A stretch of 64,000 bases of DNA from Phycisphaerales bacterium (lineage in GTDB: Bacteria > Planctomycetota > Phycisphaerae > SM23-33), in the NCBI GenBank assembly GCA_018644725.1, contig JABGPZ010000094.1, positions 1 through 64,000 of the forward strand, in the 5' to 3' direction. Made by a program: the position numbers and the translations under genes. The stretch's first letter is position 1, and every line of letters starts with the position of its first letter. Positions 7,257 through 63,614 of this stretch are shown here, piece after piece. The notes beneath the pieces were generated by a model that worked only from the letters and a program-made list of their open reading frames with translations, searched no databases and was not told where the DNA came from.

Positions 7257-7282
7257 ACCGCCCCCCTGTGGGGCGGTTTTTG
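7257..7282 (+). terminator. Rho-independent terminator
   Basis: ACCGCCCC-CCTGT-GGGGCGGT then T-run. Confidence 0.85.
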
Positions 7283-7295
7283 TATAATGGGACAC

Positions 7296-7312
7296 ATACC
7301 CCCATAGAGTAT
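7296..7312. promoter_or_regulatory. Second, imperfect CsoR-type operator
   Basis: ATACCCC-CAT-AGAGTAT, same 7-3-7 layout as the perfect site at 7375. Confidence 0.5.
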
Positions 7313-7336: not shown

Positions 7337-7391
7337 TTGACGGGCGAGAAGGGGCTGGCTACAGTGTAATGGACATACCCCGAGGGGGTAT
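7337..7391 (+). promoter_or_regulatory. csoR operon promoter plus CsoR-type operator
   Basis: TTGACG (7337-7342), 17 bp, TACAGT (7360-7365); perfect inverted repeat ATACCCC-GAG-GGGGTAT at 7375-7391. Confidence 0.8.
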
Positions 7392-7418: not shown

Positions 7419-7700
7419 ATGCCCATTTGTGATTGCAACAAAACACTGCTACTGAACCGAGTCAAGCGCCTGGAAGGTCAGCTTCGCGGGATTCGCAAAA
7501 TGATTGAGGAAGATCGCGATTGTGTGGATGTGTTGCGGCAGATTGCTGCGGCGACTGGCGCGGGGAAATCGTTGGGGATGGTGATGCTCGAAGACCACAT
7601 GAAGACGTGCGTTGTCGATGCGTTCGAGTCTGGCAACGAGGGGCGCAAGACCCAGCGCGTGGACGAAGTCGTTGACCTGATCCGGAAATTCAGCCGCTAG
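7419..7700 (+). CDS. csoR: CsoR-family metal-sensing transcriptional repressor
   Basis: DUF156 fold; C35-x24-H60-x3-C64 ligand set with the spacing used by M. tuberculosis CsoR; extra N-terminal CxC. Confidence 0.9.
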   Translation: MPICDCNKTLLLNRVKRLEGQLRGIRKMIEEDRDCVDVLRQIAAATGAGKSLGMVMLEDHMKTCVVDAFESGNEGRKTQRVDEVVDLIRKFSR

Positions 7701-7718: not shown

Positions 7719-9359
7719 GTGAAACGTAATGAAGATTATCCAGTGGAATCGATTTCCCTTGACCGCCTCGGCGCAAAGGCATCGCCCGAGAGTACTCCGT
7801 CGCATCCGCCGCTGCCGAAGCGCAAGTGGAAGTCTCGCATCCTGGCGCCGCTGGCGTTGTTGTTGGTTTTTGGAGGGATTCTGGGCTTGGCTGCATTGGA
7901 TGTGCTGTTCCCGGGCCGCTCTGTTGAGGTCATTCCGGTTGTGCCCCGCGCGGCGACGCATCCCGTTTCCGTCGAGCCGTCCAAGGCCCCCGCAACCGAA
8001 GCGACCGTGACCACCGGTGGCCAACTGGTTGCCCAGGGCAGCGGTTGGGTCGAGCCTGATCCGTATGAAGAATATGCCACTGCGCTCACGGGCGGGGTGA
8101 TTTCCGAGATTTTGGTTCTCGACGGCGAGGCCGTGACTCCGGGGCAAATCGTCGCGAAGATGGTGTCCGACGGCGCGGAAATCGCGCTTGCCGGTGCCGA
8201 GGCCAAGCTGGCCACCGCACAGGCGGCGTCGCCGTTGGCGATGGCAGAGCTCCAAGGCGCCCAGAGCGATTGGGACAATCCCATCGAGCAGGAGCGCAAG
8301 GTCGAAGTGACCACCGCCGCACTGGCAGAAATTCGTGCCGAGCGCAAGCAACTCCCCGCGCTGATCGCAGCGGAGGGAGCGCTGTGCAAGCAGCTCAAAG
8401 ACGAGTTGAATCGTATGACTGCGGCACGCAAAAAAGAAATCGCAACCGACTTTGAACTCAAGAGCGCTCAATATCGCCTCGAGAGTCAGCACGCCAAGCA
8501 CGAAGCGATGATTCAGCGCAAGGCGATTCTTGACGCGAAGATCGCCGGCCTCGAGTCGGAGGTCAAAGCCGCTCAGCGCGACTTGAAACTTCGCATCAAC
8601 GAGCGGCGCGCCCTCGACCAGGCCAAGGCGGCCGTCGCGAGTGCCAAGGCCACGGTCGCATCGGCCGAGTCCGACCGCCGCGATGCCAAGCTGCGTCTGG
8701 ATCGGATGTCCATCCGCGCCGTCAAGGCGGGCGTGGTGATGCGTCGGCTCAAAAGCCCGGGCGAAAAGCTCAGCGTGATTTCCGACAATCCCGATTCGGC
8801 GAAGGTGCTGAGTCTCTACGATCCGAAGAAGCTGCAGGTCCGCGTGGACGTTGCCGCCAGCGAGGCCAAGCCCGTTCAGGTTGGTCAGCGCGCCGAGGTT
8901 GTGATCGACATTGAAGGCACGACGGTCTTTGCCGGGCGCGTGACGCGCATCGTCAACGAGGCCGACGCCCAGAAAAACACCCTCGAGGTCAAGGTCGCCA
9001 TTGATGCGCCCTCGGCCGCAATTCGCCCGGGGATGTATGGCCGTGTGAAATTCTATTCCCGCGGCAGGACGGTCGCCGCCTCGTCGGGGTCCAAGTCCGT
9101 TGGCGAGGGCGCGGGGATGGTCGCGCTGTATCTGCCCAAGGCGCTCATCGTCGAGCATCAAGGTGCGAAGGTCGTTTGGCTGTCGATGGATGGCGTTGCC
9201 CAGCGCACCGAGGTCACTCTTGGCCGCGGCGAAGACGGCGATTGGGTGGAAGTTGCCACGGGTCTCCGCGGAGGCGATCGTGTGATCGTTGGCGATCTTT
9301 CGGATCTGCGCGACGGTGAAAAGGTGACCGAAATTGGAGAATCCAAAGACTACCGCTGA
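7719..9359 (+). CDS. HlyD/MacA-like periplasmic membrane fusion protein
   Basis: GTG start with AAGGAG SD; TM anchor, biotinyl-lipoyl halves, long coiled coil, beta-barrel (VQVGQRAEVVIDIEGTTVFAGRVTRIV). Confidence 0.85.
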   Translation: MKRNEDYPVESISLDRLGAKASPESTPSHPPLPKRKWKSRILAPLALLLVFGGILGLAALDVLFPGRSVEVIPVVPRAATHPVSVEPSKAPATEATVTTGGQLVAQGSGWVEPDPYEEYATALTGGVISEILVLDGEAVTPGQIVAKMVSDGAEIALAGAEAKLATAQAASPLAMAELQGAQSDWDNPIEQERKVEVTTAALAEIRAERKQLPALIAAEGALCKQLKDELNRMTAARKKEIATDFELKSAQYRLESQHAKHEAMIQRKAILDAKIAGLESEVKAAQRDLKLRINERRALDQAKAAVASAKATVASAESDRRDAKLRLDRMSIRAVKAGVVMRRLKSPGEKLSVISDNPDSAKVLSLYDPKKLQVRVDVAASEAKPVQVGQRAEVVIDIEGTTVFAGRVTRIVNEADAQKNTLEVKVAIDAPSAAIRPGMYGRVKFYSRGRTVAASSGSKSVGEGAGMVALYLPKALIVEHQGAKVVWLSMDGVAQRTEVTLGRGEDGDWVEVATGLRGGDRVIVGDLSDLRDGEKVTEIGESKDYR

Positions 9360-9387: not shown

Positions 9388-10191
9388 ATGACGTTAATTG
9401 AATGCAAAAATCTGACACGAACCTACCGCAAAGCAGGCCGCAGTGGCGCGGAAGTGACCCCGTTGCGCGAGATGAATCTCAACGTGGACCAGGGGTCGTT
9501 TCTGGCGCTGATGGGCCCGAGCGGCTCGGGCAAAACAACGCTGCTGAATATGCTCGCGGGCATCGACCGGCCCACCGGCGGCGAATTGTGGATCAGCGGG
9601 ATGAACATTGCGGACCTTTCCCGCGCGGCGTTGGCGGATTGGCGCGCGAAGTCCATCGGCTACATCTTCCAACTGTACAATCTCGTGCCGGTTCTCACCG
9701 CCTACGAAAATGTCGAGCTGCCGCTGCTGCTGCACAAGTTGACCCGCGCTGAGCGGCACGAACGTGTCTGCACCGCGTTGGACCTTGTGGGCCTCAGCGA
9801 CCGTCACGATCACTACCCGCGCCAGCTTTCTGGCGGCCAGGAACAGCGCGTCGCGATTGCCCGCGCGATTGTGACCGACCCGGACATCATCGTTGCCGAC
9901 GAACCCACGGGCGACCTGGACAAGGCCGGCGCGGTGGCGATTATGAACCTGCTGTGCCGCCTGAATTCCGAAATGGGCAAGACGCTCATCATGGTCACGC
10001 ACGATCCGAAATGTGCCGACTATGCCAACCAAACCCTGCACCTGGAAAAGGGGAAACTCGTCGAGGCGGAAATGCTCAACGAGGACGAAGTGATTGTGGT
10101 TCACGACGACGAAGTGGAAATTTGCCGCTGCGAAATCTGCGACTGTGACCCCTGCGAGTGCGCCCCGGGAGAGACTGAAGGCCAAGCATGA
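9388..10191 (+). CDS. ABC transporter ATP-binding protein (MacB/LolD-like) with C-terminal Cys-rich tail
   Basis: [35 protein letters not shown]; tail [13 protein letters not shown]. Confidence 0.93.
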
Positions 10192-11357
10192 TTCACCCTC
10201 GATACATCCCGGTGGTCGTTCGGCAGGTGATGCGTCACACGACGCGCTCGCTGCTGACGATAGGCGGCGTGGCGTGTGCGATGTTCCTATTCTGCGCGAT
10301 TCAGGGCATGCAGCGCGGCGTTGATATGGCGACCCAGGCCAAGGCCGATGACGAAACTCTGATCGTGTACCGCAAGGACCGCTTCTGTCCGGAGGCGTCC
10401 AAATTGCCCACGCACTATCTCCCGCGCATCAAGCAGATCAAGGGCGTCAAGCATGTCATGCCGATGCGCGTGATGCCCACGAGCTGCACGACGACGCTGG
10501 ACGTGATCGTTTTTCGCGGAGTGCCGCGCGAGGAGTTTTCCCGAACCGATGGGACGGACCTCGATATTGTTGCCGGTAGCCTGGCCGATTGGGCCAAGCG
10601 CGAAGACGCGACGATCATTGGCGAGGAGATGGCCAAGCGCCGCAAGCTGAAGATCGGCGATTCGTTCGAGGCCGCGGGCATGAAACCCAAAGTGGCGGCT
10701 ATCTTCCGCAGCGCCGACCCGCAGGAACAGTCCGTCGCTTACATGGACCTGTTCTATGTGCAGAAAACGCGCAAGGGCCCCCAGCGCGGCAAAGACGGCC
10801 AGGGCGTGGTCACGCAGTTCCGCGTGCGCGTGGATGACCCCAAAAATCTCGATGCCGTTGCCAAGCAGATTGACGAGGAATTAGCGCACGACGTCGAGCC
10901 GACCGTGACGCGGACCGAAAAAGAACACGTCGCCCGTGCGGCCTCGGCGGCGATGGAGCTGGTGGGCTTTACGGGCTATCTCGCGATGGCATGCCTCGCG
11001 GCCGTGCTGGCACTGGTGGCCAACGCCATCGTCCTCAGCGTTCAAGACCGTGTGCGCGACATCGCCATCCTCCAGACGCTGGGCTATCGCCGCGGGTTGA
11101 TCTCGCGAATGATCATGACCGAAGGGTTGCTGATGAGCGTGGCGGGGGGCTTCGTCGGGACACTGGCTGCGTGGATCATGGTGATGCAGACGGGCTGGTC
11201 GATCTCGGCCGAGGGCGTGACCCTGCCGATTATTCTGGATGGCTCGGTGGTGCTGATGGGCTTTGGAATCAGCATCTTCGTGGGCGTGGCGGCCTCGCTG
11301 GTGCCCGCGCTTCAGGCAGCGAAAAAAGAAATTGCAACATGCTTCCGTGCGGTCTAG
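10188..11357 (+). CDS. MacB/FtsX-type ABC transporter permease
   Basis: MacB-like periplasmic core plus four-TM FtsX architecture; overlaps the ATPase gene by 4 bp. Confidence 0.88.
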   Translation: MIHPRYIPVVVRQVMRHTTRSLLTIGGVACAMFLFCAIQGMQRGVDMATQAKADDETLIVYRKDRFCPEASKLPTHYLPRIKQIKGVKHVMPMRVMPTSCTTTLDVIVFRGVPREEFSRTDGTDLDIVAGSLADWAKREDATIIGEEMAKRRKLKIGDSFEAAGMKPKVAAIFRSADPQEQSVAYMDLFYVQKTRKGPQRGKDGQGVVTQFRVRVDDPKNLDAVAKQIDEELAHDVEPTVTRTEKEHVARAASAAMELVGFTGYLAMACLAAVLALVANAIVLSVQDRVRDIAILQTLGYRRGLISRMIMTEGLLMSVAGGFVGTLAAWIMVMQTGWSISAEGVTLPIILDGSVVLMGFGISIFVGVAASLVPALQAAKKEIATCFRAV

Positions 11358-11388: not shown

Positions 11389-12552
11389 ATGAAATGGATT
11401 CCCTGGGAATATGGATTGCGAAACCTTGGCCGAAGCCCGCTACGCGCGGCGCTGACGGCACTGGGGGCGATGCTGGTGGTGGGGCTGATCCTCGCGGCCG
11501 GGTCGTTCCTCGCGGGCATCGAGCGCCAGCTGGCCTCGACGGGCGACGAGGGCAACATCCTCATTATCGGCAAAAGCTCGCAAGAGTCGATGCTGCGGAG
11601 CGAAATCCCCCTCAAGCTGGACACTGTTGCTCGCGGCGACATCACGGGAATCCAGGAACGCTTCGGCGTGCAATATGTCTCGCCCGAGATCCTGTTCATG
11701 CCCGCGCTGAAGCTCACCAAGAAGGACTACAAGTCCCATCAGATGATTTTGCGGGGCGTGGTTCCTGCCGCCGCGCTGGTCCACCCCAAGGTGCGCGTTG
11801 TCGAGGGGCGGTTTCCCGCAGGCGGAGACGAGCTGATGATTGGCGCGCTGACACCCGTTCAACTTCAGACAACCCACGAGCGGCTGGCCATTGGCGAAAA
11901 GCTCTATTTTGACGACAACGCGTGGACGATTGTCGGGAAATTTGAAGCGCCCGGCACGGTGTTTGAGACCGAGATGTGGGCGCCGATGACGAGCCTCAAA
12001 GCCGCCTCCAAGCGCGAGGGGATTTCGACGCTGGTGGTTTCGGCCGATGCCGACGGGTTGTCCGATGCGAAAATGATGGCGGGGCGATTGATCAATGACG
12101 AAATCGTCGCGATGACCGAAAAAGAATATTACGCCAACACGGGCAAATTCTATGAGCCGATCCGCATCATGGTCTGGGCGACGGCGGGGCTGATCGCCAT
12201 GGGTGCGCTGCTGGGCGGGCTGAATACGATGTACGCCGCGTTCGCCGCCCGCGTTCGCGAAATGGCAACGCTCCAGGTGCTCGGCTATTCCCGCGTCGCG
12301 GTGGCAGTGAGCCTTCTGCAGGAGTCGCTGCTGGCGACGGCGGCGGGCGGATTGATCGCTTGCGGGCTGGGCAAATTGTTCCTCGACGGCACGGCCGTCC
12401 GATTCAGCACCGGCGCAATCACTCTGAACGTGGACGCGTCGGCGATTCTCATCGCATTGCTTGCGGGGATCCTTCTGGGCATCGCCGGGGCATTGCTGCC
12501 CGCATGGCGCTGCTTGCGCCGACCCATTCCCGATGCACTTCGCGCGGCATAA
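11389..12552 (+). CDS. MacB/FtsX-type ABC transporter permease
   Basis: EYGLRNLGRSPLRAALTALG N-terminus; FtsX C-terminal TM bundle. Confidence 0.88.
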   Translation: MKWIPWEYGLRNLGRSPLRAALTALGAMLVVGLILAAGSFLAGIERQLASTGDEGNILIIGKSSQESMLRSEIPLKLDTVARGDITGIQERFGVQYVSPEILFMPALKLTKKDYKSHQMILRGVVPAAALVHPKVRVVEGRFPAGGDELMIGALTPVQLQTTHERLAIGEKLYFDDNAWTIVGKFEAPGTVFETEMWAPMTSLKAASKREGISTLVVSADADGLSDAKMMAGRLINDEIVAMTEKEYYANTGKFYEPIRIMVWATAGLIAMGALLGGLNTMYAAFAARVREMATLQVLGYSRVAVAVSLLQESLLATAAGGLIACGLGKLFLDGTAVRFSTGAITLNVDASAILIALLAGILLGIAGALLPAWRCLRRPIPDALRAA

Positions 12553-12630: not shown

Positions 12631-13227
12631 ATGAAACATGTTTCTACTGCACTGCTTCTCGCGGCGACGCTTCTGACGGCGGGCTGTGGCGCCAAAGACA
12701 AGGCGACCAACGATCACGCCAAAGCCGACGCGAAGCTCTTTCCCGCCACGCTGCTCACCGAGGCAGAACTCGAAGGCGAAATCGCCATTGCCAAGGTCAA
12801 GGCCGACAAACTCGAAGCGGGCAAGGTGATTGTGGTTACCGGCATGATCGGTGGCCGCGCCGAACCGTTCAACGAGGGACTTGCAGCGCTCTTTCTCGTC
12901 GATGAGGCCATCAAGCCCGCCGGCGACGGATGCCCCTGTGGTTCCAAACCGTGGATGTTCGGATGTACCGATGCCAAGGAATTGATCCCGCACCTCGCGT
13001 TTGTCCGGGTCCTCGGCACCGATGGCAAAGTCATCAAGTCGACCCTCGAGGGGTTCGGCGGCCTCAGCGGTGGCAGCGAAATTACGATCCAGGGTACGGT
13101 CTCGTCCAACGACGAAAATGGCCTGGTGATCGACGCGACTGCGATTCACGTTCACGAAGAAGGCGAAGACCATGACGAGCACGAAGAAGGCGACGAGCAC
13201 GAAGAAGGCGAAGACTGCGACCACTAA
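12631..13227 (+). CDS. Lipoprotein with CPC/Cys motif and His/Glu/Asp-rich tail (putative metal-binding)
   Basis: Lipobox LTAGC; GDGCPCGSKPWMFGC; tail HVHEEGEDHDEHEEGDEHEEGEDCDH; last gene of the csoR operon. Confidence 0.8.
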   Translation: MKHVSTALLLAATLLTAGCGAKDKATNDHAKADAKLFPATLLTEAELEGEIAIAKVKADKLEAGKVIVVTGMIGGRAEPFNEGLAALFLVDEAIKPAGDGCPCGSKPWMFGCTDAKELIPHLAFVRVLGTDGKVIKSTLEGFGGLSGGSEITIQGTVSSNDENGLVIDATAIHVHEEGEDHDEHEEGDEHEEGEDCDH

Positions 13228-61890: not shown

Positions 61891-62262
61891 ATGACCGACG
61901 AATCCCACGACACCATTTCCGATCCCTGCAGCGGCGATTGCCGCAGCTGTGCCACAGGTGGCCACGGCGTGCACTCACACACCATGGGGACGTGCCAAGT
62001 CCCGGGCGGCCTGGAAGGCTGGCCACTGGCGGGTGTGTCGGCGGCGACATTCCTTCTGCCGCTGGTTTGTGCCGCGGCGGGGGCGATGGCCTGTCGCGCT
62101 TCGGCGATTGCCAAGGTCGGCGCGGCGGTGGCATGCTTTGTTATCGGCGTGGTCTGTGCCAGCGCAATCACGGGCTGGATTCGTCGACGCTATGAACCGA
62201 ACCTCACGTCCGAATCGACCGATTCGGATTGCATTGAACACAGTGACAAGGAGACCCCATGA
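61891..62262 (+). CDS. Small two-TM Cys-containing membrane protein, possibly RseC-like, coupled to rnfC
   Basis: N-terminal CSGDCRSC; two TM segments; stop overlaps rnfC ATG. Confidence 0.5.
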   Translation: MTDESHDTISDPCSGDCRSCATGGHGVHSHTMGTCQVPGGLEGWPLAGVSAATFLLPLVCAAAGAMACRASAIAKVGAAVACFVIGVVCASAITGWIRRRYEPNLTSESTDSDCIEHSDKETP

Positions 62263-63614
62263 GTGTTTCAACCGCTCCGGGCAGCGGGACATTTCCCTGC
62301 GGCGTTCATCCGCCGGAAGGCAAATCGTTCGCCAAGGACTGCCCCATTGAAGTCTTGCCCACCCCCAAGCAAGTTCGCATCGCGACCCAGCAAAATGTGG
62401 GCGCGCCGTGCGAAGGGCTTCTCAAGCCCCGCCAGGAAGTCACCGCGGGCGAGCAAATTGGCTCGGCCGAGGCATTCATTTCCGCGCCGCTGCACTCGCC
62501 TTTGACCGGTGCGGCCGCAATGGCCCAGGCCGTGACGTTGGCCAATGGCCGGCACATGCAGGCGATGGTCATCAACGCCAGCGAAGAGCCCCAGCCTCTC
62601 GAAGGCCAGGCGCTTCTCGACGACGTCTACGGCGGCGACTGGCCCCTCGGCGCGCTCGAGCAGTACGCTCCCGAGCAGATCGTCGACGCGGTGAAAACCG
62701 CCGGCATCGTCGGCCAGGGCGGCGCAGCGTTCCCGACCTATGTCAAACTCCTTCGCAACGATGAGAAGCCCATCGACACGGTGGTGCTCAATGGCTGCGA
62801 GTGCGAGCCGTACCTCACGGCCGACTATCGGCTGATGGTCGAGTTCCCCCAGCCGATTCTCGCGGGTGCGATTTTGGCCGCGCGGGCGACCGGCGCGAGC
62901 AAGATCTACGTCGGCATCGAAGACAACAAGCCTCTCGCGATTGAGACCCTCCAAGCCGCTGCGGCGGGCACGGGTGTCGAGATTGCGGTGCTGAAAACCA
63001 AATATCCCCAAGGCAGTGAAAAGCAGACGATGTACGCGATCACCGGCCGCGAAGCAGGCCCCGGCAAGCTGCCCTCCGAGGTTGGCTGCTGCGTGATTAA
63101 CGTCGCGACGGCCGCTGCCATCGCGCGTGCTGTCGTCCGCAACAAGCCTCTGACCCACCGCGTGGTGACGGTCACTGGCGGCGGGATCAAAGAACCCAAA
63201 AATCTGCTCGTGCCTGTCGGCGTGAGCTGCCAAGTGCTGATCAACTATTGCGGCGGGCTGACTGACGACGCCGAACGCGTGATTTCCGGTGGCCCGATGA
63301 TGGGCTTCACGATGGGCAACATCGACTCGCCCGTCACCAAGGGCACTTCCGGGTTGACGGTGTTGCGCACCAGCGACCTCGCCCACACTACGGAAACCAA
63401 TTGCGTGCGCTGCGGGCGCTGCGTGGACGTCTGCCCGATGGGGCTGGTGCCGACGCGCATCGCGCTCGCCAGTCGCAACCAACTGTGGGACCTTGCCAAG
63501 CAGTATCACATTCTCGCGTGTGTCGAGTGTGGTTGCTGCTCGTACACCTGCCCGGCGGCATTGCCGCTGGTACAATTGATTCGCATGGGCAAAGTGTCCA
63601 TGCCCCGGGACTGA
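62259..63614 (+). CDS. rnfC: Electron transport complex subunit RnfC/RsxC
   Basis: GVHPPEGK; GQGGAAFPTYVKL; CVRCGRCVDVCPMGLVPT...CVECGCCSYTCPAALPLVQ. Confidence 0.96.
   Translation: MSVSTAPGSGTFPCGVHPPEGKSFAKDCPIEVLPTPKQVRIATQQNVGAPCEGLLKPRQEVTAGEQIGSAEAFISAPLHSPLTGAAAMAQAVTLANGRHMQAMVINASEEPQPLEGQALLDDVYGGDWPLGALEQYAPEQIVDAVKTAGIVGQGGAAFPTYVKLLRNDEKPIDTVVLNGCECEPYLTADYRLMVEFPQPILAGAILAARATGASKIYVGIEDNKPLAIETLQAAAAGTGVEIAVLKTKYPQGSEKQTMYAITGREAGPGKLPSEVGCCVINVATAAAIARAVVRNKPLTHRVVTVTGGGIKEPKNLLVPVGVSCQVLINYCGGLTDDAERVISGGPMMGFTMGNIDSPVTKGTSGLTVLRTSDLAHTTETNCVRCGRCVDVCPMGLVPTRIALASRNQLWDLAKQYHILACVECGCCSYTCPAALPLVQLIRMGKVSMPRD

Follow-up and report, generated by a model that had tools for sequence, protein, structure and literature searches.

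An ABC ATPase gene (9388-10191, plus strand) of the window, that is, the whole 64-kb stretch of DNA which was analysed, ends in a cysteine tail that, judged by its sequence, is real, unusual and unique to one genome among the data examined. The gene belongs to an operon headed by csoR, and this operon and a TolC-family gene elsewhere in the genome appear to form one predicted CsoR regulon, which is a more robust result than the function of the tail. The reading preferred here, tentatively and at slightly less than an even chance, is a CsoR-switched tripartite ABC pump with a lineage-specific Cu(I)-thiolate tail, which would buffer metal beside the ATPase or tune its activity.

The csoR operon and its predicted regulon

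Six genes, from csoR to a lipoprotein gene, run in one direction on the plus strand, and an intrinsic terminator (7257-7281, plus strand; an 8-bp stem with 7 G-C pairs, then TTTT) separates them from an upstream PQQ-like gene. csoR (7419-7700, 93 aa; PF02583, E 1.6e-28) is located 18 bp upstream of the gene for a periplasmic membrane-fusion (adaptor) protein (7719-9359, 546 aa), which is over the TIGR01730 cut-off with 128.5 bits and also matches HlyD_D23. The ABC ATPase that follows (267 aa; PF00005, E 1.3e-34) has a LolD/MacB-like core from residue 1 to ~228. Two permeases, both with matches to the MacB_PCD and FtsX domains, are encoded at 10188-11357 and 11389-12552, the ATG of the first (10188) overlapping the stop of the ATPase, and the lipoprotein gene is placed at 12631-13227. 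LolD is the best NCBIfam model for the ATPase, with its cut-off missed (219.2 vs 307.75 bits), as is that of LolC/E by the permease match (80 vs 362.45 bits).

The five-gene block from the adaptor to the lipoprotein is kept in most of the Phycisphaerae loci that were fetched and in some from other phyla. csoR was found in none of the related operons (0 of the 90 fetched loci). By eye, no CsoR was seen near the ATPase on the same contig among the matches listed, the nearest being ~10 kb away (G415). Similarly, no TolC gene adjoining the operon was found in the loci of the relatives.

The best solved relative of the window's CsoR is itself a CsoR, 4m1p, and the putative metal ligands C35, H60 and C64 align with the C/H/C of 4m1p and 4adz. 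CsoR proteins with C-H-C ligands usually respond to Cu(I), and proteins of this family can also sense Ni, persulfide or formaldehyde. The N-terminus, MPICDC (7419-7442), carries an extra C4-x-C6 which is unseen in the other aligned CsoR proteins.

A sigma-70-like promoter, TTGACG-17-TACAGT (7337-7365, plus strand), was predicted by a consensus scan (9/12, with 0.2 expected in shuffles). Just downstream of its -10 box, direct inspection of the sequence gives a putative CsoR type-2 operator, ATACCCCGAGGGGGTAT (7375-7391), which is palindromic with G-tracts, has the form TAC-X9-GTA and matches the operator consensus of Streptomyces lividans CsoR, ATATACCCCTNAGGGGTATAT (PMC3902906). A degenerate operator-like copy, ATACCCCCATAGAGTAT (7296-7312), has 2 mismatches to ATACCCCN3GGGGTAT and is weak, such matches also arising by chance.

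The scan of the genome (2.54 Mb, 95% complete) for operators gave two perfect sites, with ~0.01 expected elsewhere at uniform base odds (1 in 4^14). The other site (G000:C100:60031-60047, equal to L219:6032-6048) is ~50 bp upstream of a TolC-family gene (L219:4323-5981, minus strand; OEP, E 1.2e-30), the one among three TolC-family genes of the genome with a perfect operator. On the other side of this site, a TM1266-like gene is ~170 bp away (from ~6219, plus strand); since it is further off, the TolC gene is a more likely target, though not the only one possible. The genome has one detected CsoR, which is therefore the natural reader of both operators. Because the relatives have no TolC beside the operon, it is only the operator that links the TolC gene to it. 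A single operator-like site was found in the loci of the relatives, in a distant one (L064), and none in those of close orthologues. Other CsoR genes of the phylum, examined by eye, adjoin operator-like sites, and the ORFs beside them resemble heavy-metal P-type ATPases or CusC/TolC-like proteins.

The lipoprotein has a predicted OB-like fold and belongs to a family that conserves C97, C101 and TPWDYCC (motif C..C.TPWDYCC). In the window's copy the Cys site is altered to GCPCGSKPWMFGC: the conserved C97 and C111, two of the four Cys, are lost, C103 and M109 are gained, and a His/Glu-rich C-terminal tail is added. By sequence comparison, these changes parallel those of the ATPase in the same operon and are rich in metal-ligand residues. 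No Pfam or NCBIfam family was matched by the window's lipoprotein. The fold search with the predicted structure gave only generic OB-fold matches (Z ~9), and for this reason the function is not readable from the fold.

The cysteine tail and its absence from relatives

Translation of 9388-10191 confirmed what the sequence-only reading had noticed, namely that the ATPase ends with six Cys in 13 residues arranged as three CxC pairs. In detail, the Cys are residues 246, 248, 251, 253, 256 and 258 (bases 10123-10161) and form a perfect (CxCxx)3 repeat with a five-residue period, preceded by an acidic spacer (D+E 33% and K+R 3% over residues 229-267). The C-terminal extension with spacer and tail (10072-10191, plus strand) was defined by translation, pLDDT and comparison with 187 relatives. 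Its placement outside the LolD/MacB ATPase core, also claimed at the outset, holds as well, the best family models stopping near residue 226. AlphaFold2 gave a confident core and a pLDDT of ~45-52 for the tail, which is probably disordered.

Cys makes up 1.0% of the residues in the coding segments neighbouring the ATPase, and at this local frequency the binomial chance of six Cys in 13 anywhere in the ATPase is ~4e-7. The codon profile of the tail is coding-like (GC1/2/3 of 0.69/0.36/0.67, vs 0.63/0.42/0.79 in the core). A DNA tandem repeat was ruled out as its nature on checking the DNA. When all six frames of the window were read from stop to stop, no other reading frame of 60 aa or longer had a six-Cys run. 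No metallothionein family matched the tail, a weak sub-cut-off hit to CRM1_repeat_2 being the only one from a 36-aa query of little power. Elsewhere in the window, the ORF at 62247-63611 contains a dense Cys run (CVECGCCSYTC) and is probably an iron-sulfur protein.

The relatives of the ATPase comprise 187 distinct sequences from a phylum search, GTDB genomes and 80 further regions; they represent Planctomycetota and a few other phyla, and 129 are at least 60% identical. The sequence-only reading had looked to close homologues for conservation of the Cys, and this was not borne out, as the CxC tail is present in none of them (0/187). Their tails have no Cys in 179 cases and one in 7. The remaining relative, L254, shows three tail Cys; it lacks the HLEKG end and seems to be a frame-shifted reading rather than a genuine tail. 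The C-termini differ widely in both length and sequence; the median tail is 19 residues and most proteins stop ~20 residues beyond the core. A Phycisphaerae MAG (L167, ATPase from 760) has at the same place a His-rich tail, DEPEHAHGHAHDHGEHRK, with seven His.

No orthologue linked to csoR, the comparison set named by the sequence-only reading, turned up, and the orthologues of the operon are all without the tail. Among 35 genomes of the window's family there was no close copy of the operon, and the Cys tail is known from one MAG contig. In the tree, the window's operon is basal (support 0.8) on a branch of 0.65, vs a median of 0.17. A gain of the tail is favoured, not proved, because the outgroups do not have it. 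As the tail occurs in one genome only, conservation gives no support for a function.

Two further searches for the motif were set aside. The phylum-wide DNA pattern search was swamped by TGC repeats, its reversed control being also rich, and the one short match of the viral scan (KCDCDPCEC, L066:5090-5130, in a viral contig) is taken as a coincidence, the rest of the protein being dissimilar.

Possible roles of the tail and the pump

In the preferred reading, the gene product would power, as its ATPase, a type VII ABC efflux system that is LolCDE/MacB-like and split. The CsoR repressor would switch on the ABC operon together with the TolC-family outer-membrane channel, so that a predicted tripartite pump is formed, and the ATPase of this lineage would have acquired a cytosolic tail, acidic and flexible, that carries the three CxC pairs. 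The tail may bind a soft metal, for which Cu(I) is the likeliest candidate. Split ABC ATPases normally act as dimers, which would bring 12 thiols to the nucleotide-binding domains; there the tail would buffer metal and/or make the ATPase activity metal-dependent. We infer CsoR binding at both operators, the copper signal, the assembly of the pump, metal binding by the tail and its effect on the ATPase from the sequence, and it is only the CsoR fingerprint and the type of operator that would favour copper over other metals. The metal context of the tail is stronger than the sequence-only reading knew, with the C-H-C set of CsoR, its operator, the operator of the TolC gene and the lipoprotein.

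Other proteins of the genome bear on copper. Its only P1B ATPase passes the cut-offs of both the Cd-type (463 bits) and the Cu-type (408 bits, cut-off 397), with the higher score for the former. No CusA-type RND pump of the genome is over the cut-off, and two RND pumps miss the CusA/CzcA heavy-metal cut-off. The genome has one SO_0444-type Cu/Zn efflux protein (L229:313-1689, on G000:C111), with a His/Cys-rich stretch and a C-terminal HMA domain. It could be this protein or the P1B ATPase, rather than the ABC pump, that handles copper. The fuller claim of a MacB/LolD-type (not RND) copper pump, switched by CsoR with TolC, whose Cu(I)-thiolate tail couples pumping to cytosolic copper, is in our estimate unlikely. 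In the literature searched, there was no paper on CsoR, MacB and copper resistance together.

The tail was suggested at the outset to be a metal receiver; as such, it would take cytosolic Cu(I) and pass it to the permeases for export through the inner membrane. In favour of this, P1B copper pumps are supplied by cytosolic CxC/CxxC donors, and the metal sensed by CsoR is cytosolic, with tail and pump in one operon. However, ATP hydrolysis by MacB-type transporters drives periplasmic work, and their substrate is not carried through the inner membrane (PMC5985334). The receiver role fits such mechanotransmission poorly and is improbable, and for the same reason a role in buffering or in regulating the ATPase is more plausible for thiols in the cytosol than one as an entry port. 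The other suggestion made at the outset, an on/off sensor, may hold. Since MacB-type systems act on periplasmic substrates, the link from cytosolic metal to pumping is not obvious in the preferred reading.

The tail might also be neutral, the loss of a stop codon having lengthened the ATPase up to the start of the next gene with a functionless Cys repeat. The presence in one genome only, the variable C-termini of the relatives and the long branch are in line with this, and we give it a minor though appreciable probability; against it stand the perfect three-unit CxCxx with its acidic spacer in a csoR operon, improbable by chance at the value given above, and the coding-like profile of the tail. 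CxC pairs readily form disulfides, and the thiols could thus serve as a redox or sulfur switch which senses oxidant or persulfide, with the window's CsoR acting like CstR. CstR is without the His of the CsoR metal-sensor set, whereas the window's CsoR has His60 and two Cys, a metal-sensor fingerprint, and such a switch seems quite improbable even with the sulfur sensor CstR being a member of the CsoR family (PMC3902906). A structural role, with Zn or an Fe-S cluster bound so as to stabilise the complex, has a precedent in Escherichia coli DppD and DppF, whose C-terminal Cys-ligated [4Fe-4S] clusters are needed for complex assembly (PMC12136057). Against this, the Cys of DppD (284, 290, 297 and 315) are unlike six Cys within 13 residues, all 187 relatives manage without the tail, and we consider this option very improbable.

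Comparison with known systems

In CusCBA, the well-known example of tripartite copper efflux, an RND pump supplies the drive; for MacB-type ABC pumps, the known substrates are antibiotics, peptides and siderophores. If a CsoR regulon of an ABC/adaptor operon and TolC is true, copper-type efflux would be extended to mechanotransmitting ABC systems. The Cys tail, if true, would be a simple means of tying an ABC ATPase to metal. Because Phycisphaerae commonly have the five-gene operon, whose lipoprotein family goes unrecognised by Pfam and NCBIfam through the window's copy, these results bear on an uncharacterised transporter group.

The window's system resembles MacAB-TolC in its adaptor, its ABC ATPase and its FtsX/MacB_PCD permeases, and is predicted to have a TolC-family partner as well. 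Unlike MacB proper, which is a fused chain, the ATPase and the two permeases are three separate genes, so that the system may function in the manner of MacB without being one, and CsoR control, the Cys tail and the extra lipoprotein are further differences. The TolC gene is absent from the operon, and the one elsewhere carries the same perfect operator. The portions of the literature consulted mention no metal substrate for MacB. Separate genes for an ATPase and two FtsX-type permeases are shared with LolCDE, LolD being the closest NCBIfam model of the ATPase, but the window's operon differs in having an adaptor gene and in missing the LolD and LolC/E cut-offs.

With csoR-copA/copZ operons the window shares a CsoR repressor and a type-2 operator beside the promoter. 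Those operons encode a P-type ATPase or CopZ, whereas the predicted targets here are the ABC/adaptor operon and the TolC gene. In DppD/DppF, too, an ABC ATPase carries a C-terminal addition rich in Cys; unlike the window's tail, this is a folded domain whose four Cys are widely spaced, and it belongs to an importer and is essential for assembly. Metallothioneins have dense CxC repeats in common with the tail, which differs from them in being the end of one enzyme, with six Cys only.
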